IMG/VR virus record: IMGVR_UViG_3300042691_015935
Span: 20,401-84,400 of that record
DNA from: a virus
Length of the DNA: 64,000 bases
Direction: 5' to 3' (one strand)
Positions 1,685-42,358 of the stretch are shown piece by piece. The translations under genes were made by a program, and so were the position numbers. The notes under the pieces were generated by a model. The model worked only from the letters and a program-made list of their open reading frames with translations. It searched no databases and was not told the DNA's origin. Each line of letters begins with the position of its first letter. The stretch's first letter is position 1.

Positions 1685-3834
1685 GCAATATTTAATACCT
1701 GATCAATAACTTTTAAATTCTTTTTAAGTGAGTAGTTAGGAAAATGTGTTTTAATATCAAAAATTGTATCGAATACTGAAATTGTATCGTATATGTTTTT
1801 ATATAGTCTGGATTTATTATATTCACCTTTAAAGTCTTCAACTAGACACAGAGTGTCGTCTTCTTTGTAGAAAACAAAAAACCTATCGCCTTCCACATAG
1901 TTTGATTCTTTAATAGCGTCTAATACTTTGGTCTCGTTTGTTCTTTCAGATTCCATCATAGTACTTGATAATGTTTTTCTTGCTGCCCATCTTTTGATAT
2001 CTGTAACATTAGAAGCTTCTTTAATATAATTAATATATAGTTGTTTAAGTTCTTCGAATGGACCACCGTAAAGTATGTGTTTTATAATAATTTTAATCAT
2101 TTCTTTTAGGGCAGAACATTTAGTTGAAGCTTTTAATGCTGAACCTTTAACTGTTATTTTATCACCTTCACGATAAGCATAATTTTTTGCTTTTACAACC
2201 ATAATCGAATCATATACTGAATCTAATTCAAACTTAATTTCTTTAGGTAATAACTCATTAATTTCAGTAATTAGTTTATCTATTTCTTGTTTATTAAATT
2301 CTTGTCCATTTTTCCATATAGTTATAGAATCTGTGTCTACTTTAGGAACACTAAATCCTTTTGATTCTGCCCAATTAATGGAATATGTTAGTATTTCTCG
2401 TCCACGTCTGGTTACTTCTGCTGCACCCGCTGGGAAGTTAAAATTTAGTCCTTGTGCACCCATGAATCCATACAGAGAATTTATCAGAATTTTCTGGCTG
2501 GTATCTAGGTGTTTATATAAATTATTGCCTGTCTCTTTTGCTAATTTTTTATTCTTTAATCTTTCAGCCCTTAAATATTCCAATAGTTTGAGCATGTGAC
2601 AATTAGGGTCTTTTTCTTTACTATATATTTGATATTCAAGCATCACAGATGGATATAGTGAAGCAATATCGAAAGACACAGCGTTTTGATACACACCAGG
2701 ATTTCCGTATGAGATTGCTCCTTCGTATTCGACAGGACCATCTTCTTTAGGAATACTATGTTTGTTTTGTAAATAACTTCTAACCATTAGCGAATTTAAT
2801 TGACTACCGCTGGCACTTTCAACAATTAATTGAAAAGTTTTAGGAATCATTTGAGTCATATAAAAGAAAGGGGCAGACATTAAATCATATAATGCTAAAG
2901 AATCGTCACTGTCGTCTTCACAATATACTTTTATTTTTTCCCATTCTTCAGGAATTAAATAATTATGTCTTATTTGACTAGCATCATAATGTACTCTTTT
3001 TTCTTTCTCTAGACCTTCGACTTTAATAATAGATTTTAACGCATATGACTCATATTTTTTAGTTGCAGTATCATATCTGTAAGCTAAAAACATTGTATCA
3101 ATTAGGTCTCTTCCATGTATTTTACATTTATTGTAATGTAAATCTCTACTACCATCTACTCTGAATTTAGATTCACGTTTAGCTCTAGTCATCGCTGAAC
3201 CGTCTCTACCTAGATTAAGTTCATATCCGTGTCTTTCTGAACAGAATAACATATACGGTAAGTCATATCCAAAGATATTGTGACCAATTATTATTGCTGG
3301 GTCCATTGAACAAACCCAAGAACACCAATCTGCAACCATTTCACCACAATTATTATAATCAGTGTAACTGAACAATTTTTTAATTACAATTCCGTTTTTT
3401 CTGAATGTATTAGAAATTAATAATACTTTCGAGTCGTGATTGTGTTCCAACCCTGTGCCTTCTATATCGAAGCTTAACATAGGTAATTCAGTGTTTGTTA
3501 GACCTTTGTAATACGTTAATCCGTCTTTCAACATAAACGCTTCTTGGTCATTATAAACACTATATATATCTTCGTTACGATATTTAATTCTTGCTTCTTC
3601 TAACTCTGATTTATTTTTAAATTGTTTTCCAAACTTATAATGTAAATCACCATCTAATCTAACAAAGTCATTTCCTATCTTCCTATCACTAAGAAGCCAG
3701 AAACGATTAGACATATACTGTAAATGAGTTTTGAAGTTCTCGTCTACAGTATACACTAACGCTTTATCATTTTGAATTTCAATTGAAACAATTCTTTCTA
3801 GAGAATTCTTTCCATAGATTAATGACTGTGACAT
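1681..3834 (-). CDS. Family B DNA polymerase with 3'-5' exonuclease
   Basis: At 717 residues it is a compact family B replicative polymerase. Visible motifs in order: Exo I SFDIEGTGL (about 121), Exo II GHNIFGYDLPYM (about 184), Exo III YCEDDSDDS (about 305), motif A SFDIASLYPSVM (about 388), motif B KILINSLYGFMG (about 455), motif C VDTDSI (about 505) and the KAKNYAY motif. All catalytic acidic residues are present, so it should be active and proofreading. Its start overlaps the stop of a 39-codon gene as TAATG, which suggests translational coupling. It is shorter than T4 gp43 (898 residues). Confidence 0.95.
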   Translation of the reverse strand: MSQSLIYGKNSLERIVSIEIQNDKALVYTVDENFKTHLQYMSNRFWLLSDRKIGNDFVRLDGDLHYKFGKQFKNKSELEEARIKYRNEDIYSVYNDQEAFMLKDGLTYYKGLTNTELPMLSFDIEGTGLEHNHDSKVLLISNTFRKNGIVIKKLFSYTDYNNCGEMVADWCSWVCSMDPAIIIGHNIFGYDLPYMLFCSERHGYELNLGRDGSAMTRAKRESKFRVDGSRDLHYNKCKIHGRDLIDTMFLAYRYDTATKKYESYALKSIIKVEGLEKEKRVHYDASQIRHNYLIPEEWEKIKVYCEDDSDDSLALYDLMSAPFFYMTQMIPKTFQLIVESASGSQLNSLMVRSYLQNKHSIPKEDGPVEYEGAISYGNPGVYQNAVSFDIASLYPSVMLEYQIYSKEKDPNCHMLKLLEYLRAERLKNKKLAKETGNNLYKHLDTSQKILINSLYGFMGAQGLNFNFPAGAAEVTRRGREILTYSINWAESKGFSVPKVDTDSITIWKNGQEFNKQEIDKLITEINELLPKEIKFELDSVYDSIMVVKAKNYAYREGDKITVKGSALKASTKCSALKEMIKIIIKHILYGGPFEELKQLYINYIKEASNVTDIKRWAARKTLSSTMMESERTNETKVLDAIKESNYVEGDRFFVFYKEDDTLCLVEDFKGEYNKSRLYKNIYDTISVFDTIFDIKTHFPNYSLKKNLKVIDQVLNIA

Positions 3835-4008: not shown

Positions 4009-5964
4009 TTAGTCCCATCCTGAATCATTGTCTTTGTTTTCTTTTTTGAGCTTTAATAATTCTTTTAATTCTTGTCTTTCAACATCTTCAAGTTCACTAA
4101 TTTCTCCTGTTTTACCTTTCCACCCGAACTCTAGTCTATCTAATTCACCTAGATCATTCTTTAAAATATTCATTACCATATACTTATCTAACTCTTTAGT
4201 TGATGGAGTATAAAATGGTCTAGATAAACTTATAATACCTCTGAATGATTGATACAAGAATGAACTACCTTTAATTGATGTATAGCTCGTTATCTCTGTG
4301 TCTGGTCCACTTCCCAAGCTAAATTTATTAGGTTGACAAAGAACAATAGCTGCGACATCTAAATCATTCACTAAGTCTTGAATTTCATTTGCTATTTTCT
4401 TAGAAGCAGCAGTATCGTCTGATACGTCAGTATTTACTCTCTCGAAGTAGTCTAACATAACAAATCGGACTTTCTCGCCCGTTGTTTGTTCAACCTCTTG
4501 AATATAATTTCGGATACTAGCAATAGTAGCTGAGCTTCTGTCGTAAAACCAAACGTTTCCATATCGTTCTCTGATCAAGTTCATTAATTCTTTTTGTCTA
4601 GGATTGTTTGTTTTGAAAATGTGGTATACTTCTTCTCTAGGTAATCCTGTTACTTTGTATAATAGCTTTTCAAATAACCTATTTCTGTGCATATCTAACG
4701 ATGCAAACACACTAGTTATACCTTGTTTAGACGTATTCTCTAGTATATTCAAGGCGAGTGCAGTTTTTCCCGCACCAGGGGCAGCTACAATACCGACATT
4801 AGAACCAACCGTAATAGGCATTGTTCTATCTAAGCTTTTAATACCTGTTTTGATTGTATTCTTTTCTATGTTTTGAACAAACGAAACGAATTGTGATTCA
4901 ATTTCACTAATTTTCATTGGTTCAACATCTAAATCAATCTTATTCTTAACACCCATACTAGAAGCATATATTGCTAACCAATTAGTAGGGTCTTTGGTTG
5001 TGAATTGTCCACCTTTCCATGTTTCAGAAAACACTTGACTAATGATTAAATCGATTTCAGAATCAGGAAATTCTTCTTCTCCTGTTCTTTTAGATTGGAT
5101 TTCAGCAACACCAGTTAGTAGATTTTTTACATGTTCTTCTGCGTATCCGACATTTCGATATGTAGCAGCTAGGCATAACATAGCGTGATTTCTTTGACCT
5201 GTTTTAAAGAAACCATTAGCTAATAACCATCTAGCTTCATCTAGATATTTAGGTTTTGTTTTCATGTCGATAGTTGTGTGATCAAAACTATACTCAGCTT
5301 CTGTTTCTTTCTTCTTTTCAGGTACTTTAATATTTTTCATATCATCTGGTAAGTCGACTTGTGTACTTTCAACTTGAATGTTTCTTTGATTTTTAGCTAG
5401 TTCAGTTATCTGAGTGATTGGTAGTTCATCTAACTCATATAAATGAAGTGGAATCTTGTATAATCCAGATTTCTGATGTTTAGTGTTCGGTAAACGAATA
5501 ATTCTATTAGGGTCGTTCACCACCTTATCAAACGTTTTCAAGTCCCCTGCAACATCAAACACAATAGCTTTAAATGTTGACGGAGTAATACTATCATTCA
5601 ACTGTACTTCCAAAGAGAATCCCTTGTTTCCAGTGAAGTGAGCTACAATAGATTGCTCTGGAATACCTCTATCAATCAATCTATGTGCTGTAACAATAGC
5701 ATCTTGTCGAGCAAGTTCTAAACTATCTTTACTATCAAAGTCGAAGTATAATATATTGGTTACAGTATCTTCAATCCCTGAAACAGTTCCAGTAGTAGAT
5801 ACTATTTTTTTATGATTTTGATTATATAAAAACAAACTACGATACCAATCTTTAGATTTATCTTTGATTAAATTCTGATACTCATTAGCTGCGACTAGAT
5901 TAGCTTTACTAGTTAATCCCTCACGGAGATTTACAAACTTCATTTCTTCCTCCAAATTATTCAT
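4009..5964 (-). CDS. Primase-helicase: AEP-like primase fused to DnaB/RecA-type helicase
   Basis: A 651-residue fusion. The N-terminal part has archaeo-eukaryotic-primase features: an acidic FDFD motif near residue 75, FTGNKGFSLEV near 110, and DPNRIIRLPNTKH followed by GLYKIPL near 150-175. The C-terminal part has Walker A APGAGKTA (about 395), Walker B FVMLDY (about 498) and a CQPNK sensor-like motif, as in replicative helicases. It should open the fork and prime DNA synthesis. It ends in an acidic, tryptophan-containing tail (DNDSGWD) resembling that of the annealing-type protein at 6751. Primase chemistry is inferred from motifs. Confidence 0.88.
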   Translation of the reverse strand: MNNLEEEMKFVNLREGLTSKANLVAANEYQNLIKDKSKDWYRSLFLYNQNHKKIVSTTGTVSGIEDTVTNILYFDFDSKDSLELARQDAIVTAHRLIDRGIPEQSIVAHFTGNKGFSLEVQLNDSITPSTFKAIVFDVAGDLKTFDKVVNDPNRIIRLPNTKHQKSGLYKIPLHLYELDELPITQITELAKNQRNIQVESTQVDLPDDMKNIKVPEKKKETEAEYSFDHTTIDMKTKPKYLDEARWLLANGFFKTGQRNHAMLCLAATYRNVGYAEEHVKNLLTGVAEIQSKRTGEEEFPDSEIDLIISQVFSETWKGGQFTTKDPTNWLAIYASSMGVKNKIDLDVEPMKISEIESQFVSFVQNIEKNTIKTGIKSLDRTMPITVGSNVGIVAAPGAGKTALALNILENTSKQGITSVFASLDMHRNRLFEKLLYKVTGLPREEVYHIFKTNNPRQKELMNLIRERYGNVWFYDRSSATIASIRNYIQEVEQTTGEKVRFVMLDYFERVNTDVSDDTAASKKIANEIQDLVNDLDVAAIVLCQPNKFSLGSGPDTEITSYTSIKGSSFLYQSFRGIISLSRPFYTPSTKELDKYMVMNILKNDLGELDRLEFGWKGKTGEISELEDVERQELKELLKLKKENKDNDSGWD

Positions 5965-18953: not shown

Positions 18954-20576
18954 TTATATACCACATACTCCACCAACACACTGAACTTCGTTTTCTTCAA
19001 ACACCATTCCTTCGTTGGCTAGTGCTTCTTCTAGTGAAACTCTAGTAAGGGGTTGACCTCCTCGGCATCCATCTGGATAACAAGTAAATCCTCTTAGTCT
19101 TTTTGCATATTTCAATAATGTATTTGAATTCTTATCTAATGAACTTTCATTATTGTCGTCTGTTCCCCATGAAGACATATTACATGTTGAACTGATAGAC
19201 ATATCAACGTAGTTCTGAATGTCAGCTTGAAACTTAACACGTTGTCTAAACGAAAGATCGTATGAATCTTTTATGTTCTCAATTTTAACTCCACGTTCAA
19301 GAAGTCTTTTAACTGAACCATCGACAACGTATTGAAATAACCATTTACCTTCTTTAAAGTATCTGCGTTTATATGCTTTACAAAATAAAGGTTCAATTCC
19401 TGTTGTTGTTTCAGCAAGTATCCCTATTGTTCCAGTTGGTGCAATCGCTCTGACACCTTTAGGCACAGACACTCCTAATTCTTTAGCAAACGTGTATGCT
19501 GTATCATTTGATTGTTCTTCATATATAGCTAACCATTTATGTAACTCTGGAGTGCATACGTAGTCTTCGCCACGCATCATTAACCACTCATGAATACCAC
19601 CTAAACCTAATCCAATTCTGTTGTTTTTTAATCCAACTTCTTTTATTTTATCATTAGGTACATCGGAATATATTCCTCCACAAATTAAAAACTTTGTTGA
19701 CATTTCAATATCTTTTCTTAATTGCTTAGTGTCTTTTATTCTGTTTAACCAAATAGTGCCCAGGTTACATTTATCTGAATCGTCTTCACTCACTACTTCA
19801 CAACAAGCGTTGCGTAGTGACTCGTTATCTTTTCTAAAGTTAAAGCTAAATCCTGGTTCTGCTGTACTAAATGCTTGTGAACAATTTCTTCTCCATACTT
19901 CTTTAGCGTGTAAATATAATGGGTGTTCTTTGTTTTCAATTGCCATGAAAAATTCAGTGTCATATATAACTGATATGTTTGTTAACTCCATGTCTAATTT
20001 GAAATTAAAATCTTGTTCTTTTAGTTTCTTTAAATCTTCTGTGTGATTTTTTAAATCAAGAAATTTAAATATGTCAGCATGTTTCCAATTTAATCCTGCC
20101 CAAATAGCTGAACGACGCTGACCTCCTTGCATTATATTTCTTCCAGCTTCATTGACCATTCGCATTAAAGCAATAGGACCTGTACTAAATCCTCCTGTTC
20201 TTTTTACTAAAGCACCTTCATGTCTCAAAGCTGAATAATCAACACCGATTCCTCCACCAGTCATTAGTGCTGAAGTAATTCGATACATTAACTCAGCCCA
20301 TTCTTCACGAGAATCACCTGCTCTAAATAAAAAACAATTATTAACCTGATGGAATGGTCTACCTGCTGAATATAAATATCTACCACCAGGAATAAATCTT
20401 CTATCTTCAATCATGTTTACAATATATTTTTTATCTTCAGGAGAGAGTCTTTGACCACAAACTGCTTCAACTATTCTGTTTGACATGTCAGACCAGTTCT
20501 CTTGACCATTCATTGAATACTTTTGAATAAAAACATCTTGACTAAACTTATTTGAAAATACATCGTACTTTGACAT
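18954..20576 (-). CDS. Ribonucleotide reductase, class II (adenosylcobalamin) type
   Basis: 540 residues, a single-chain reductase. Visible: FIPGGRYLYSAGR, NNCFLF, TGGGIGVDYS, GGFSTGPIALM, the catalytic NACCE (NxCxE) near residue 257, KCNLGTIWLN, APTGTIGILAETTTGIEP and a C-terminal redox pair CVGGVCGI. The absence of an NrdB gene nearby and the overall pattern fit B12-dependent NrdJ, which works with or without oxygen. It supplies deoxynucleotides for phage DNA, with the dNMP kinase at the left edge. A class I large subunit is the alternative, but no small subunit is seen. Confidence 0.85.
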   Translation of the reverse strand: MSKYDVFSNKFSQDVFIQKYSMNGQENWSDMSNRIVEAVCGQRLSPEDKKYIVNMIEDRRFIPGGRYLYSAGRPFHQVNNCFLFRAGDSREEWAELMYRITSALMTGGGIGVDYSALRHEGALVKRTGGFSTGPIALMRMVNEAGRNIMQGGQRRSAIWAGLNWKHADIFKFLDLKNHTEDLKKLKEQDFNFKLDMELTNISVIYDTEFFMAIENKEHPLYLHAKEVWRRNCSQAFSTAEPGFSFNFRKDNESLRNACCEVVSEDDSDKCNLGTIWLNRIKDTKQLRKDIEMSTKFLICGGIYSDVPNDKIKEVGLKNNRIGLGLGGIHEWLMMRGEDYVCTPELHKWLAIYEEQSNDTAYTFAKELGVSVPKGVRAIAPTGTIGILAETTTGIEPLFCKAYKRRYFKEGKWLFQYVVDGSVKRLLERGVKIENIKDSYDLSFRQRVKFQADIQNYVDMSISSTCNMSSWGTDDNNESSLDKNSNTLLKYAKRLRGFTCYPDGCRGGQPLTRVSLEEALANEGMVFEENEVQCVGGVCGI

Positions 20577-20646: not shown

Positions 20647-22131
20647 TTATGAAGCAGATAATCTTTTTCGAATATCATTTAAAGATTCTTCAATTAAAAA
20701 GTTACCATTTTCAAAAACTGTTTTCAATAAATTCTCTTTAGAGATATTAGAACTTGTATCATCGGAATATTCTAATACACCAGAATTATTTTTGAATACT
20801 GTCACTTTACCTAACGCTGAATTTTTTGTACCGTCGTCTGTCTTAGGTGCTTTGAATATTGCTTTCTCTGTTCCATTAATTGTAACAGATGTTGCTTTCA
20901 TTGCAAAACCTAAAGTGTCTCTTGTGATAAATTGATATGTGTATGAACCGATTCCTAGTACAACATTAGTAGAAGCGAATCCTTTTTGTTTTAATCTCTC
21001 ACAAATTTCTTTACATCTTTCAAGTGTAATCGAGTCACCGTAAATAGCTCCGATTTTAGGATTAAGTATTTTGTATCCTTGTGATGATACTGTTCCACCG
21101 AATGTTTCATATAATAATTCAATAACACCTTTGTTCTCAGGTGAACCTAGAGGAGCTTCAGGGTCTCCACATAGAATGTCAGCAGGGTCTCCACTATCAG
21201 GACGAACCACTACTTTATCTAATGAACCTGCTCCACCATCACGAGCTAGAATTGATTCTTTTAATGAAGGTAAAATGTTTGTTACAACATTAAATAAATC
21301 CCAAGTATCTGACACAATACTAACAATACCTGTTGGATATAGTTCTTCAATGAATCTTCTATATGTTTCTCGTTCGTCTTCATATCCTCCTGCACACATT
21401 ACTGAATGTTCGCTTGCTGGAACTGAACAACCAACTAATTCTTTAGTAACATCTGCATTGTAGTATTGTTCTGCATAATTAATTGCGGGTAATGTATCTG
21501 TTCCAACGAATGATAGTAGGTGTCCAACACCAGATCGTGCTGAGTCTTCAGGTCCACTCTGTCCTCTCATAGAGAAATCGTGTCCTTGAAATTCAACGCC
21601 AGCAGTAGAGCCTGTTGTCTCCAGTGCGTAATTATCTAATACTGAGCGGTAAGCTTTAGCAATACTTGCTGTTGTCGCTGGTTTCCATAGTAGTGATGAA
21701 AGAATAGTTTCAAGATAATTTGTTAACCAAAAGAATTCATCTTTAGTATTCTCGATTGTCATTACTGGAACTCGAAATGGTACTAACGTTCCTTCAGCTA
21801 ATGCTGTTACTTTTAACGGTAAATAACCTAAATCATGTAAGTCTTCTAAGTGTTTTGTTTCAACATTTGGATTAAATAAATAAGCAGATACTTGACGCTT
21901 GTATTCATTAATAATTTCTTCTTTCTGTTTACTAAAGAACTGTGAATTAAATAATTCGTTTAATTCTTTTAATGCACCTTGTGTTCCAAAAGCTACAACG
22001 TTCTCAATTCCGTTGGCATGTTTACCTGAACGTGGTGTCCATGTACTGTATACCTTTGATGTGTTCTTTGGATACTGTACTCTATGACTAAGCTTGTAAC
22101 CGTCACATGCTAATGTTGCAATTAAATTCAT
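20647..22131 (-). CDS. Nicotinamide phosphoribosyltransferase-like enzyme (NAMPT/NadV or Namat)
   Basis: 494 residues matching the whole NAMPT family: start LACDGYKLSHRVQYP, GVEFQGHDFSMRGQSG, GCSVPASEHSVM, IVSDTWDLFNVV, VVRPDSGDPADI and YGDSITLER. NAMPT joins nicotinamide to PRPP, making NMN for NAD salvage. Some phage relatives (Namat of the NARP1 pathway) instead use ADP-ribose pyrophosphate to rebuild NAD+ in one step. The PRPP-synthetase-like gene at 23631 is the expected partner in both cases. Confidence 0.93.
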   Translation of the reverse strand: MNLIATLACDGYKLSHRVQYPKNTSKVYSTWTPRSGKHANGIENVVAFGTQGALKELNELFNSQFFSKQKEEIINEYKRQVSAYLFNPNVETKHLEDLHDLGYLPLKVTALAEGTLVPFRVPVMTIENTKDEFFWLTNYLETILSSLLWKPATTASIAKAYRSVLDNYALETTGSTAGVEFQGHDFSMRGQSGPEDSARSGVGHLLSFVGTDTLPAINYAEQYYNADVTKELVGCSVPASEHSVMCAGGYEDERETYRRFIEELYPTGIVSIVSDTWDLFNVVTNILPSLKESILARDGGAGSLDKVVVRPDSGDPADILCGDPEAPLGSPENKGVIELLYETFGGTVSSQGYKILNPKIGAIYGDSITLERCKEICERLKQKGFASTNVVLGIGSYTYQFITRDTLGFAMKATSVTINGTEKAIFKAPKTDDGTKNSALGKVTVFKNNSGVLEYSDDTSSNISKENLLKTVFENGNFLIEESLNDIRKRLSAS

Positions 22132-22779: not shown

Positions 22780-23634
22780 TTACTTAATGTTAATAAAGGG
22801 AATAGCGTTACTTCCTGTCATAGTTGGAAGTCTTCCGTCCCAACGTTGGATAGCTTCGTACTGGATTAATTCAGATGTTAGTGTTTTTAATTTTAAAGCA
22901 TTAGACTTTGCCTCTGCTTCAGCTATTGCTAACATTGATTTAGCTTTACCTTCAGCTTCTGCAATTTGTTTTTTAGCTTGTGCTTCAGCTTCTCTTAGTT
23001 CGTTCTCTCTTTGTTGTGCTCTTTGTGTTGCTTCAATCTTAGAGTTAAGAGCAGATACAACGTTGTCTGGTAATCTAATAGAACCAATTAAATATACTTT
23101 CTCAATAATAATACCATGCGGTTTTAAACTCTCTCTAACTAATCCTTCAACCTTTAGAAATAAGTCTGTCTTACCAGAACCATAAACAGATTCAACAGTC
23201 ATTGTAGATGCTACAGTATTTAGTGCATCTCTTAAAGCGTTCTTTACTACAACAGCTTTTATTTCATCAATACCTTTCCTATACTTTTGGAATAGTTTGC
23301 TGATCTTAGAATCATCAACAGTGAATGTTACACCCATATCAATGTTACAAGATAGACCTTCTGACGTTTGAAAAGTAAAAGATTCATCTGTTTCAGAGTC
23401 TTCCATTTCGTCTCTCGTGTAGATTTTTGTTTGTTGGAAAGTAGGGAAGATGTATAGTTCCTCATTGATCCCAACCCAATATCTACCTACACCTAGTACT
23501 TCGTGGTCAACACCCTTACTACCGCCTAGTAGGTAAATCTTAACACCAACATTACCTGCTGGAACTTTAGAACAAGACGTTGTGAATAACGTCAGTAACA
23601 ATACAATAAAAAAACCCTTCAGAAAATTAATCAT
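22780..23634 (-). CDS. SPFH/band 7 (prohibitin-like) lipoprotein
   Basis: 284 residues. An N-terminal hydrophobic signal ending in the lipobox FTTSC anchors the protein; the SPFH domain follows (VPAGNVGVKIYLLGG ... GVGRYWVGINEELYIFP), then a long Ala/Glu-rich coiled coil (about 205-250). Such proteins form membrane scaffolds and, in phages, can counter membrane-linked defences or modulate host proteases (FtsH-HflKC). It lies between the PRPP-synthetase-like and NAMPT-like genes and overlaps the former by 4 bp. Function in this phage inferred. Confidence 0.85.
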   Translation of the reverse strand: MINFLKGFFIVLLLTLFTTSCSKVPAGNVGVKIYLLGGSKGVDHEVLGVGRYWVGINEELYIFPTFQQTKIYTRDEMEDSETDESFTFQTSEGLSCNIDMGVTFTVDDSKISKLFQKYRKGIDEIKAVVVKNALRDALNTVASTMTVESVYGSGKTDLFLKVEGLVRESLKPHGIIIEKVYLIGSIRLPDNVVSALNSKIEATQRAQQRENELREAEAQAKKQIAEAEGKAKSMLAIAEAEAKSNALKLKTLTSELIQYEAIQRWDGRLPTMTGSNAIPFINIK

Positions 23635-24398
23635 TCAACTTCTCCTTTGAAATTAAATACTCGTTTAATGCCTTCTTCAAATAATACAAGAGAACCTCTA
23701 GAATAAATACCATGTGTTGTGTATAGATATACTTCGGAAGCTCCCATTTTATATAACTGTTTAGCACATTGAATAAAGGTAGCTCCTCCATCACAAATGT
23801 CGTCCACTATTAAACACTTTTTATTTGTTATAGGATATAGTGAGTCGGCTTCTAATGAAAGAATCTTACCTGTTGATTGTTCTCTTACCTTGTTGAAATA
23901 AATACTAGGTATATTAGTTAATGAATTTAACTTACTATAACGAACACTAGCTCCTTTGTCTGGATAGATAAGTACATCTGTTCCAGTTAATAAAGTAACA
24001 GTTTGAATGTATTTGTAAGGTATTTCATTTATACAATTAGCTATACCATGTTTATCGGAATGAGCATCAATCAAATACACAGTACTAAAGTTAAGTGAAT
24101 TAATCAAATGAGCAAATGGGTGAATACCGAATGTCGAATCATTACTTACCTCCTTATCCTGTCTTCCGTATGGAAGATAGTTAATACGTAGTGTTCCTAG
24201 TTTTTCTGAAACAGAGCCAATCATAAATCGTAATTGAGCGATTGTTATAAGCTCTGACTCTTTATCAAAGTCCCATTCAATTACGTTATTAAACGTTATT
24301 TTCATTTTGTTATACACATCTTCTGGGAGTTTCCAGACTTGTGTACAAGTATCAGGGAATGTTGTTGGAGTTACGTTGTAACCGTTTAGTGTTATCAT
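23631..24398 (-). CDS. Ribose-phosphate pyrophosphokinase-like enzyme (Prs or Adps)
   Basis: 255 residues. Motifs: YLPYGRQDKE (active-site loop), LIDAHSDKHG (metal-binding), and the PRPP loop CLIVDDICDGGATF. It is shorter than bacterial Prs (about 315), as phage members often are. It would supply PRPP to the NAMPT-like enzyme at 20647, or, if it is an Adps, phosphorylate ADP-ribose to ADP-ribose pyrophosphate for NAD+ reconstitution (NARP1). Motifs alone cannot separate these. The pair spans only four intervening genes. Confidence 0.88.
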   Translation of the reverse strand: MITLNGYNVTPTTFPDTCTQVWKLPEDVYNKMKITFNNVIEWDFDKESELITIAQLRFMIGSVSEKLGTLRINYLPYGRQDKEVSNDSTFGIHPFAHLINSLNFSTVYLIDAHSDKHGIANCINEIPYKYIQTVTLLTGTDVLIYPDKGASVRYSKLNSLTNIPSIYFNKVREQSTGKILSLEADSLYPITNKKCLIVDDICDGGATFIQCAKQLYKMGASEVYLYTTHGIYSRGSLVLFEEGIKRVFNFKGEVE

Positions 24399-40266: not shown

Positions 40267-40551
40267 CTAGATAAAACTTATGCCATTTTCTACCTTTACA
40301 AGGTTAACGCTTTGCTTCGTTAAGAGCTTTTTTAAGCGTTTAATTTCAGACATAAGTCTATCTTTAGAGGATTTTCCTTTGACAAAAAATCCACGTTGAA
40401 ACAAGTTTATATCGTTCGGGCAGTTGGTTATAACATACCCCGAATGAAACACTTTTTTAGTTGCGTTTACAGCTTGACGCTTCAACGCTTGTTGTTTATA
40501 ACCTGTATTAGCTCTTTTACAAGCCAACGCAGTTTTACTTAATGTTCTCAT
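40267..40551 (-). CDS. Basic protein, 94 residues
   Basis: Strongly basic (MRTLSKTALACKRANTGYK, KKLLTKQSVNLVK) with a central YVITNCPNDIN segment. The AGGAG ribosome site (40567-40563) lies inside stem III of HHR-A and would be freed by cleavage. Likely RNA- or DNA-binding by charge; not recognised. Confidence 0.58.
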   Translation of the reverse strand: MRTLSKTALACKRANTGYKQQALKRQAVNATKKVFHSGYVITNCPNDINLFQRGFFVKGKSSKDRLMSEIKRLKKLLTKQSVNLVKVENGISFI

Positions 40552-40868: not shown

Positions 40869-41572
40869 GTGATTCTCCTAGTTTAAGTATATATTTAATT
40901 ATATATACAAGAATTTAATTTTAATCTCGACTTGTCAGGTCGATGCCGAGCTATCATTCAAGCCCCATGCCAACTCATTTTCTGAACAAAATCAAGCACT
41001 TAGCTGTGGTTCACAATGACACCAGTATCGAAAAGTCACCAAAAACAGAGCCAAAATGCCACCAAAGCCAGTATCAAAACAACACCATCTCAACAAATTC
41101 AAGCACTTAGAGCTAAGTACCTGAAATCTCGTAGCATGGTATAATAAGAACCCGTGCGTGTGTATTAATACCCGTATGCGTGTGCATATGCCCCTGCGTG
41201 TGTTTTTATATACCTGCGTGAGCGTACGTGCGAGCGTGTGCGTGCATGGGTGTGCAGGTGCGTGTAGGCGTGAGCGTGTGTGTGCATGATGCGTAGGCGT
41301 GTGTGCGAGCGTGTGCGTGCGTATGTGTGCTAGGGGGGGGGTACACCCTTCGTGGTTCAGGGTGACATTGACCGAGTACATTCACTCACTTTACCCTCTC
41401 AACTATAGAAACCAGTAACCCTTCACCCTACTACTCATTCACAACCTTTATAACAACTCTTAGTATAATAGCCTCTAAAACGAACAAAAACAGGGTTATT
41501 TGATACTTTAGTATATAGACCTAATAGTTAGTATTAAAGCTTCTAAAACCTCTTTAAAAGGATATTAAGCTT
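40869..41572. other. Divergent non-coding region, candidate origin/control region
   Basis: About 700 bp separate the leftward and rightward arms. Contents: an AT-rich segment (40880-40925) where leftward promoters are likely; repeated words at 40985-41120 (TCAAGCACTTAG twice, CCAGTATC twice, ACTTAGAGCTAAGT palindrome); a GT/GC alternating tract to 41341; and an AT-rich segment with TATAAT at 41464-41469 facing the rightward genes. The only ORF (40992-41381) is low-complexity and not credible. Confidence 0.6.
41153..41341. repeat. GT/GC alternating purine-pyrimidine tract ending in G9
   Basis: About 190 bp of irregular GTGCGTGTG-type repeats in an otherwise AT-rich genome, with G confined to the plus strand and C to the minus, ending in nine Gs (41333-41341). 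Alternating purine-pyrimidine favours Z-DNA; strand asymmetry favours R-loop or unwinding structures. Likely part of an origin or replication/transcription switch. Confidence 0.8.
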
Positions 41573-42157
41573 ATGTTTAGTATATTTGATTTAAGTAATC
41601 TAGACAATGTTCCATTACAGGGTATAATAGCTCTTATAAACGATTCTGATAAGAAGGTATACCTAACACAGGGTTCTAACATTCCAGTGCTTCTAGGCAA
41701 GATTATAAGCGAAATAAAGCAGGGTATTCATACTCACCAAGAATTATGTGATGATTATAAGAAATTAAAAGCTATGGTTATAGAAACACAAACCGACATT
41801 ACACATAGGTACTTACACATGTCTTACTGGTATGATTACTTTGAAGCTAATGGATATAAGCTATATACTAAAAAGAATCATTTGAGTTATAAGGTTAGTA
41901 AAGGTTTAGTACATGTAGGAAGAAGTAGTACAAAGCTAGTCGTTGAAGTTTATTTAGTAAATAGTAGATGTGAAAAGACAGTAGTAGGAGTATTCGAAAC
42001 AATACAACAAGCTGATGAGTTTATAGAAACTTACTACACACAGGACAATAAATATAAGCTACCAATACTAGCTAACAACAAGTTGACTATGGCACACTAT
42101 CTATCAAAAACGAGTCGAAGGAGCGAAGCGACTGACGCAGTTACTATGGATAGGTAG
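41573..42157 (+). CDS. First rightward gene, 194-residue protein
   Basis: The chain starts MFSIFDLSNLDNVPLQGI, has a central mixed domain (YLHMSYWYDYFEANGYK, LSYKVSKGLVHVG) and a basic polar end. AAAGGAT lies 11 nt before the ATG. Being next to the origin-like tract it could be a replication or regulatory protein. Not recognised. Confidence 0.6.
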   Translation: MFSIFDLSNLDNVPLQGIIALINDSDKKVYLTQGSNIPVLLGKIISEIKQGIHTHQELCDDYKKLKAMVIETQTDITHRYLHMSYWYDYFEANGYKLYTKKNHLSYKVSKGLVHVGRSSTKLVVEVYLVNSRCEKTVVGVFETIQQADEFIETYYTQDNKYKLPILANNKLTMAHYLSKTSRRSEATDAVTMDR

Positions 42158-42247
42158 ATAGTTAGTAATTAAAAACTAAACACCAACCAAGTTGTTATTT
42201 AGGTACATATTTACTTATATTATATTATTATATGTATAGGTAATATT

Positions 42248-42303
42248 TTGACCCACCTACTGGTTCTGGATTGACCCACCTCTGGGTCTAGTTTGACCCA
42301 CCT
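42248..42303 (+). promoter_or_regulatory. Three direct repeats TTGACCCACCT
   Basis: Exact 11-bp repeats at 42248-42258, 42271-42281 and 42293-42303, spaced 23 and 22 bp, about two helical turns, so a protein could bind the same face of the DNA. They lie upstream of the rightward promoter at 42330-42358 and are candidates for an activator or repressor array. Confidence 0.8.
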
Positions 42304-42329
42304 AAAGTGAATGTTTTTGAAAAAAGTTC

Positions 42330-42358
42330 TTGACAAAAATATAAAAGTGTGGTATTGT
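42330..42358 (+). promoter_or_regulatory. Rightward sigma70-type promoter
   Basis: AGTTC extension, TTGACA (42330-42335), 17-bp spacer, TATTGT (42353-42358). Predicted start about 42365 within AAACAACTAT, so that motif would begin the transcript. Upstream iterons suggest regulation. It leads into 42420 and the genes beyond. Confidence 0.82.

Follow-up and report, generated by a model that had tools for sequence, protein, structure and literature searches.

A conserved hub at the gene divergence point of an uncultured tailed phage: a candidate early transcription start region and replication origin

The window that we analyzed is a stretch of 64,000 nucleotides, positions 20401 to 84400 of a virus record of 84,400 bp. 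The ends of the record share a 69-bp overlap, which gives a closed map of 84,331 bp: this phage contig is circular-mapping, at about 84.3 kb. The genome has a G+C content of about 32% and contains the gene set of a tailed phage, with a P22-like portal, the large subunit of terminase, a family B polymerase, an ATP-dependent ligase, and a DnaB-type helicase with a primase-like N-terminus. All of its genes fall into two diverging sets, and the only major divergence point of the contig is a noncoding gap of 1,021 bp between the last leftward ORF (40267-40551, - strand) and the first rightward ORF (41573-42157, + strand). This gap holds an unusual tract:

41153..41341, + strand, G-rich: GT/GC tract of alternating purines and pyrimidines, the variable core of the hub described below (composition, simulation, and orthologous tracts in the relatives L002 and L014)
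41333..41341, + strand: G9 run; the 84.4-kb record has no other run of seven or more G or C

A sequence-only reading had placed a GT/GC tract with nine Gs at the center from which the two arms diverge. It was right about the place: the tract covers 41153-41332 and is followed by G9 at exactly 41333-41341, inside the divergent gap. The strand bias that it described is also there, with G and T strongly favored on the + strand: the 189 bp contain 78 G, 55 T, 33 C, and 23 A (59% G+C versus about 32% for the genome). Purines and pyrimidines alternate at 78% of the steps. In the best 100 bp, the alternation reaches 0.848, as compared to a genome mean of 0.475 (standard deviation 0.057). We also simulated 64 kb 100 times with a first-order Markov model of the same dinucleotide composition: the maximum was 0.665 on average and at most 0.707. 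Perfect alternation, too, is longest in the tract, where both of the top stretches of the window (22 and 19 nt) are found. Thus, its alternation is above that of all 100 simulations, but it is interrupted: the sequence is a degenerate mosaic of TGCG, GTGT, and GCAT with no pure repeat.

A search of 50,697 phage records, at the sensitivity that we used, found no DNA similar to the window, and the terminase, the portal, and the protein encoded at the hub have no close kin among those records. The nearest named kin for the terminase and the portal is a Silvanigrella phage (27-29% identity). A search with the terminase turned up L002, a close relative at 89% identity, along with some 80 loci that are more distant; comparisons of the hub took in about 20 relatives (22-23 loci, depending on the analysis). 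Another locus, L147 (LNDT01000004.1), is a prophage-like segment in a metagenome-assembled genome from the Bdellovibrionales, with a terminase that is 34% identical, a similar major head protein, and an integrase-like ORF; it is a clue to the host of the phage family. A Bdellovibrionota-like host is plausible, and distant kin alone point to it. Elsewhere in the window, a NAMPT-like gene and a phosphoribosyl-pyrophosphate-synthase-like gene, identified by eye, lie near each other (20647-22131 and 23631-24398). This pair hints at a phage pathway for NAD salvage.

In L002, a tract of the same composition lies at the same place (4805-4950), and its exact sequence differs while the flanks are strongly conserved. 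An antisense ORF that crosses the tract in the window (40992-41381) was treated as spurious because L002 has no ORF of at least 80 aa there. L014 (57%) also has the tract, at about 4316-4425. Alternation is clearly strong in the window and in L002 and L014, and partly so in L043; in relatives at about 50%, the tract is variable. The sole Rfam match was to mir-297 in the GT repeat (E = 0.96), which we attribute to chance. Searched for in viral contigs, the exact 17-mer GACATTGACCGAGTACA gave, outside L002, only chance matches in unrelated contigs.

What is conserved lies next to the tract. Relatives at about 50% have, at the same spot, a run of 6-12 Gs and then a conserved block that ends with TATAGAAAC or TAGTAAC. 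In the window, this element is as follows:

41332..41413, + strand: conserved G-run block, from the G-run to TATAGAAAC (profile R1, one full match per genome)

Profile R1 was built from 12 training sequences and uses sequence only; it matches the window, which is among those 12 rows, with E = 8.6e-11 over 1.14 Mb (6.4e-12 in its own record). It also finds the block in loci outside the training set: L040 (5.6e-12), L042 (4.8e-8), L005 (6.5e-7), L047 (2.5e-6), and L054 and L086 (both 8e-5). Each complete record has a single full match, which is always oriented toward TerL. L030 carries C6 in place of the G-run of the other loci: at about 1590 it reads CCCCCCTATGGGACAA where L014 shows GGGGGGTATGGGACAA, so that the homopolymer seems to be strand-flipped with its flank kept. 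RNAalifold predicts zero pairs in the G-run block, that is, no conserved RNA structure.

In another relative, L069 (905-1800), a G7 block with GGGTTACTTT is followed by a strong sigma-70 promoter (TTGACA-17-TATAGT) and then by about 700 bp of noncoding DNA. The latter opens with a tRNA-like GTAGATGGG..CATCTAC, for which ARAGORN makes no call. Most genes to the right of this G7 block run leftward.

These comparisons bear on whether the alternating structure is itself functional, as a Z-DNA or supercoil-buffer element. The alternation is far beyond chance in the window, and the most alternating 100 bp lie within 300 bp to the left of the G-run block in 11 of 23 loci. However, alternation is unremarkable in L004, L040, L054, L019, and L066, the block and the outward-facing boxes described below persist in most of these five loci, and in many relatives the alternation arises partly from TGGCAT..TTGCA and TATATA motifs. 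We consider such an element very improbable, and Z-DNA as the primary function of the tract is not supported. Of the features of a Z-DNA element, the long alternating tract is present, but the things that are conserved seem to be the G-run block, the flanking iterons and dyads, and the outward boxes, rather than the potential to form Z-DNA as such. The proposed fork barrier or supercoil buffer gained no support from any of the tests that we ran.

To the left of the tract is a module of repeats and candidate sites:

40957..40972, - strand (leftward): degenerate sigma-54-type site, TGGCATG-GGGC-TTGAA, with one mismatch
40981..41003, + strand: copy 1 of a direct repeat; the second copy is at 41088-41110, and the spacing of 107 bp is identical in L002
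40990-41002: IHF-like AATCAAGCACTTA, inside copy 1 of the direct repeat
41008..41087, + strand: iteron array of three 17-bp GTATCAAAAYGCCACCA-like units in 23-bp steps (41025, 41048, and 41071), with a partial unit at 41008 (TRF and repeat search)
41098..41125, no strand: dyad TTCAAGCACTTAGAGCTAAGTACCTGAA, conserved in L002 and L014
41137..41145, + strand: extended -10-like TGGTATAAT, identified by sequence and not conserved as such in L002

The iteron units have zero further copies in the genome at up to 2 mismatches. Direct repeats about two helical turns apart and confined to one noncoding locus, as in iteron-type origins, are present in both the window and L002. The array is the same in L002, and L014, L023, and L030 have related units. 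For the dyad, GCTAAGTA is enriched in 8 of 22 loci. As a prediction only, a rightward transcript from TGGTATAAT would begin at about the left edge of the tract.

The full sigma-54 consensus has GG at -24 and GC at -12 with a fixed spacing (TGGYAYR-N4-TTGCW). Across the left modules of the relatives, we found 42 sites with TGGYAY-N5-TTGCW in 22 hubs, versus about 0.24 expected per strand; each of the other spacings of these two elements, from 0 to 15, gave 0-2 sites. GG and TGC elements mark sigma-54 -24/-12 promoters (PMC3844500). The sites in the relatives occur in both orientations. Some of those in L038 and L043 are stacked every 16-19 bp, an arrangement that resembles iterons more than promoters. 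The window has only one such site at the divergent center, which has TTGAA instead of the strict motif and is not significant on its own. Of 18 such sites beyond the hubs, 17 are in coding DNA, which gives no evidence for further promoters of this type. For the relatives, we give the putative use of sigma-54 an even chance.

To the right of the block, a short motif recurs:

41404..41412, + strand: first TATAGWAACA-type box, at a fixed distance of +68 to +75 from the G-run
41779..41787, + strand: TATAGAAAC box inside the first rightward gene
42022..42030, + strand: TATAGAAAC box inside the first rightward gene

The number of boxes in the window alone is ordinary, and the evidence for them comes from the family. 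In 23 loci, exact TATAGWAACA occurs 55 times on the + strand within 1.5 kb to the right of the block and 0 times on that strand in the 12 kb to the left; the six copies on the - strand, at up to 3 kb to the left, also point outward. Boxes within genes use both of the frames in which TAG is not a codon (32 and 49 copies), and another 46 copies are noncoding. This implies selection on the boxes at the level of DNA or RNA, and we therefore rejected the idea that they are protein-level repeats (of YRN or IET residues). Canonical sigma-70 or T7-like promoters were rejected as well, as the boxes lack a conserved -35 and are located inside genes. We noticed no RNA polymerase gene among the large ORFs.

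The boxes, of which TATAGAAACA and TATAGTAACA are examples, come in two versions, GAAAC and GTAAC. The ratio of GAAAC to GTAAC boxes is 0:9 in L056, 0:7 in L058, and 9:0 in L053, which shows, at the level of sequence, that the array evolves in concert inside each genome. Because the whole set of a genome switches variant together, one shared reader seems to be implied. Both orientation fixed to transcription and homogeneity within a genome, which are features of stoperators, are seen in the boxes.

A candidate for the reader is encoded right there:

41573..42157, + strand: gene for a degenerate GIY-YIG protein of 194 aa (profile and predicted structure), conserved at the hub across the family

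Nearly all loci have one copy of this gene, which usually starts about 160-370 bp to the right of the block. Pfam and PHROGs put no name on the window's member. A profile of 17 members matches the GIY-YIG catalytic domain of I-TevI (E = 1.6e-6), and so does the predicted structure (Foldseek E = 5e-4, probability 1.00), so by these models the protein has an I-TevI-like GIY-YIG fold that was previously unannotated. In the alignment, 16 of 17 members have lost the equivalent of the catalytic Arg27 (I-TevI numbering), and all 17 have lost that of Glu75; because these residues are lost, it should not be a homing endonuclease. For the C-terminal domain, which consists of three strands and a helix, Foldseek gave no significant match. 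We considered an AP2-like identity for this domain, which rested on a likeness of topology without such a match, and did not retain it.

The distribution of box variants requires 2 changes on the tree of the GIY-YIG protein and 3 on the terminase tree, which is suggestive of this protein as their reader. Two observations speak against it. In L015 and L019, boxes occur and a GIY-YIG gene is not detectable, and L004 is the one relative with a GIY-YIG-like gene but without exact TATAGWAACA boxes; to the right of its hub (2228-3359) are long arrays of 12-bp GGGATCAAGTGT-type repeats that code for NQVxDQV repeats. Two proteins with this fold offer precedents for a role in regulation or at origins: I-TevI also represses transcription from its own promoter (PMC2988022), and Odn of ICP1, an origin-directed nuclease from the GIY-YIG superfamily, binds origin iterons (PMC8263062). 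We view the GIY-YIG protein as a tentative candidate for the reader. Among the hub-adjacent genes that we tested, none was identified as a known initiator, and the GIY-YIG-like protein is a candidate initiator.

Just beyond this gene (42247-42358), three 22-bp repeats (TTTGACCCACCTACTGGGTCTAG) lie immediately upstream of a strong sigma-70-type promoter (TTGACA-17-TATTGT, with TG before the -10). The repeats and the promoter are conserved in L002, and the repeats look like a set of operators for the rightward operon that follows.

Overall, the presence of an ordered, single-copy cis hub at the divergence point, conserved in the family, is well supported by these sequence comparisons. From left to right, it consists of iterons and dyads (with sigma-54-spaced sites in relatives), the alternating or GT tract, the G-run block, and the outward boxes. 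Our best reading is that the hub spans about 1.3 kb (about 40.95-42.05 kb of the window), with the tract as its central, fast-evolving segment.

The hub could instead mark a genome terminus or packaging site, if terminase cut at or near the G-run. The contigs of L061 (1-12) and L005 start exactly at or just after the G-run, and those of L022 and L024 start close by. However, the window's contig and others pass through the G-run and close elsewhere, with overlaps of 22-127 bp, like circular assemblies; the terminase gene is about 5 kb from the G-run; and assemblies commonly break at homopolymers or low-complexity DNA. The starts of these four contigs beside the G-run or the GT tract are probably such breaks. 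We consider a terminus to be very unlikely.

The sequence-only reading had also suggested an origin or a transcription switch, with a GC-skew plot as a check. In the window's genome, the cumulative GC skew has its minimum 202 bp to the left of the G-run and its maximum 39.5 kb away, where the genes converge at about 17 kb of the contig. In 8 of 9 full records, the minimum is at the gene divergence, 110-358 bp to the left of the block, and in most full records the genes converge about half a genome from the hub. The plot thus does put the minimum at the hub, but skew follows gene direction: the third-position sense skew is small and has the same value in a misoriented block of genes in G007. 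Because skew tracks gene orientation, it is not an independent sign of replication, and we rejected it as proof of an origin. The suggestion of an origin or a switch is backed by the position of the hub at the divergence and skew minimum in these 8 records, although the skew cannot decide for an origin.

We propose that the tract and the hub form a divergent transcription start region that doubles as a replication origin, with a probability of roughly 0.55. That the hub is a divergent transcription start region seems probable; that it is also an origin is only slightly favored. The combined reading rests on the G-rich leader of the predicted transcript together with the iterons and dyads.

Its main rival is a hub that is purely transcriptional, with divergent early promoters and an operator or antitermination array (read as DNA or nascent RNA), and with a replication start at another place. 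This fits the boxes, which point outward on both arms as transcription does, the division of all the genes into two diverging sets, and the site arrays, which match the sigma-54 -24/-12 consensus and spacing. Also, the relative of the adjacent protein that has a solved structure, I-TevI, autorepresses its own promoter (PMC2988022). On the other hand, origins, too, typically have iterons, dyads, and IHF-like sites gathered at one locus and a lone G-run block antipodal to gene convergence, and the 16-19-bp repeats of sigma-54-type sites in L038 and L043 are too tight for independent promoters. We regard a purely transcriptional hub as possible, and less probable than the combined reading.

If the hub is both a start region and an origin, then all transcription of this tailed phage would diverge from it, and the circularized genome would replicate bidirectionally from it. 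RNA polymerase would start at the hub, and many relatives may use sigma-54 for this at the -24/-12 sites: in the window, TGGTATAAT would start the transcript, and in several relatives sigma-54-type sites would place its start a short way upstream of the G-run. The rightward transcript would have a G-rich 5' leader because the tract and the G-run are on the non-template strand, and such a leader would favor an R-loop or a G-quadruplex. In this way, the leader could keep the duplex open and provide an entry or a primer for the DnaB-type helicase-primase and the family B polymerase. Priming by an R-loop is a doubtful part of this scheme. The boxes would be read, and the switch set, by a trans-acting factor of the phage, for which the adjacent GIY-YIG-like protein is a possible candidate. 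A more specific version seems improbable: a domesticated, catalytically dead, homing-endonuclease-like GIY-YIG protein would bind boxes in and around its own gene as an origin and early switch, beside a sigma-54-driven transcript whose G-run leader would form the R-loop that primes replication.

A large family of uncultured phages thereby gains a precisely located control hub that can be recognized in sequence by its G-run block and boxes, and this hub is a candidate origin open to testing. If the sigma-54-type sites are promoters, early transcription in these phages would be tied to an enhancer-dependent host sigma factor; in the open-access papers that we searched, we found no report of phage early transcription run through sigma-54. 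If the inactive GIY-YIG protein reads the boxes, it would clearly exemplify the conversion of a homing-endonuclease fold to the regulation of replication or transcription.

How does the hub compare to known systems? In lambda-type origins, the O iterons lie inside the O gene and the origin is transcriptionally activated. The hub is similar in having iterons, asymmetric repeated boxes at one locus that reach into the adjacent early gene, and predicted rightward transcription through the site. Unlike lambda, no O-like initiator was found at the hub, the boxes are irregular over about 1 kb and mirrored on the left arm, and there is a G-run block and an alternating tract. With R-loop-primed origins (ColE1 RNA II, T4 oriF, and mitochondrial CSB II), the hub shares a non-template G-run in the predicted leader beside the presumed origin. 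Unlike those origins, one relative (L030) has C6 for the G-run, and the transcript, the hybrid, and the priming are predictions for the hub.

The stoperators of mycobacteriophage L5 and Cluster A (PMC9283540, PMC6550527) are likewise many short asymmetric motifs in one orientation, homogeneous within each genome, but the boxes are within about 1.5 kb of the center rather than genome-wide, and no repressor of that family was identified. I-TevI and Odn (PMC2988022, PMC8263062) share the GIY-YIG superfamily fold with the hub protein, which differs in that its catalytic residues are lost, its C-terminal domain is another one, and its gene is in place across the family instead of being a mobile insert. 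We do not class the hub with any of these systems; by analogy, it would work like a lambda-type origin within an early control region, with traits of stoperator arrays and R-loop origins.
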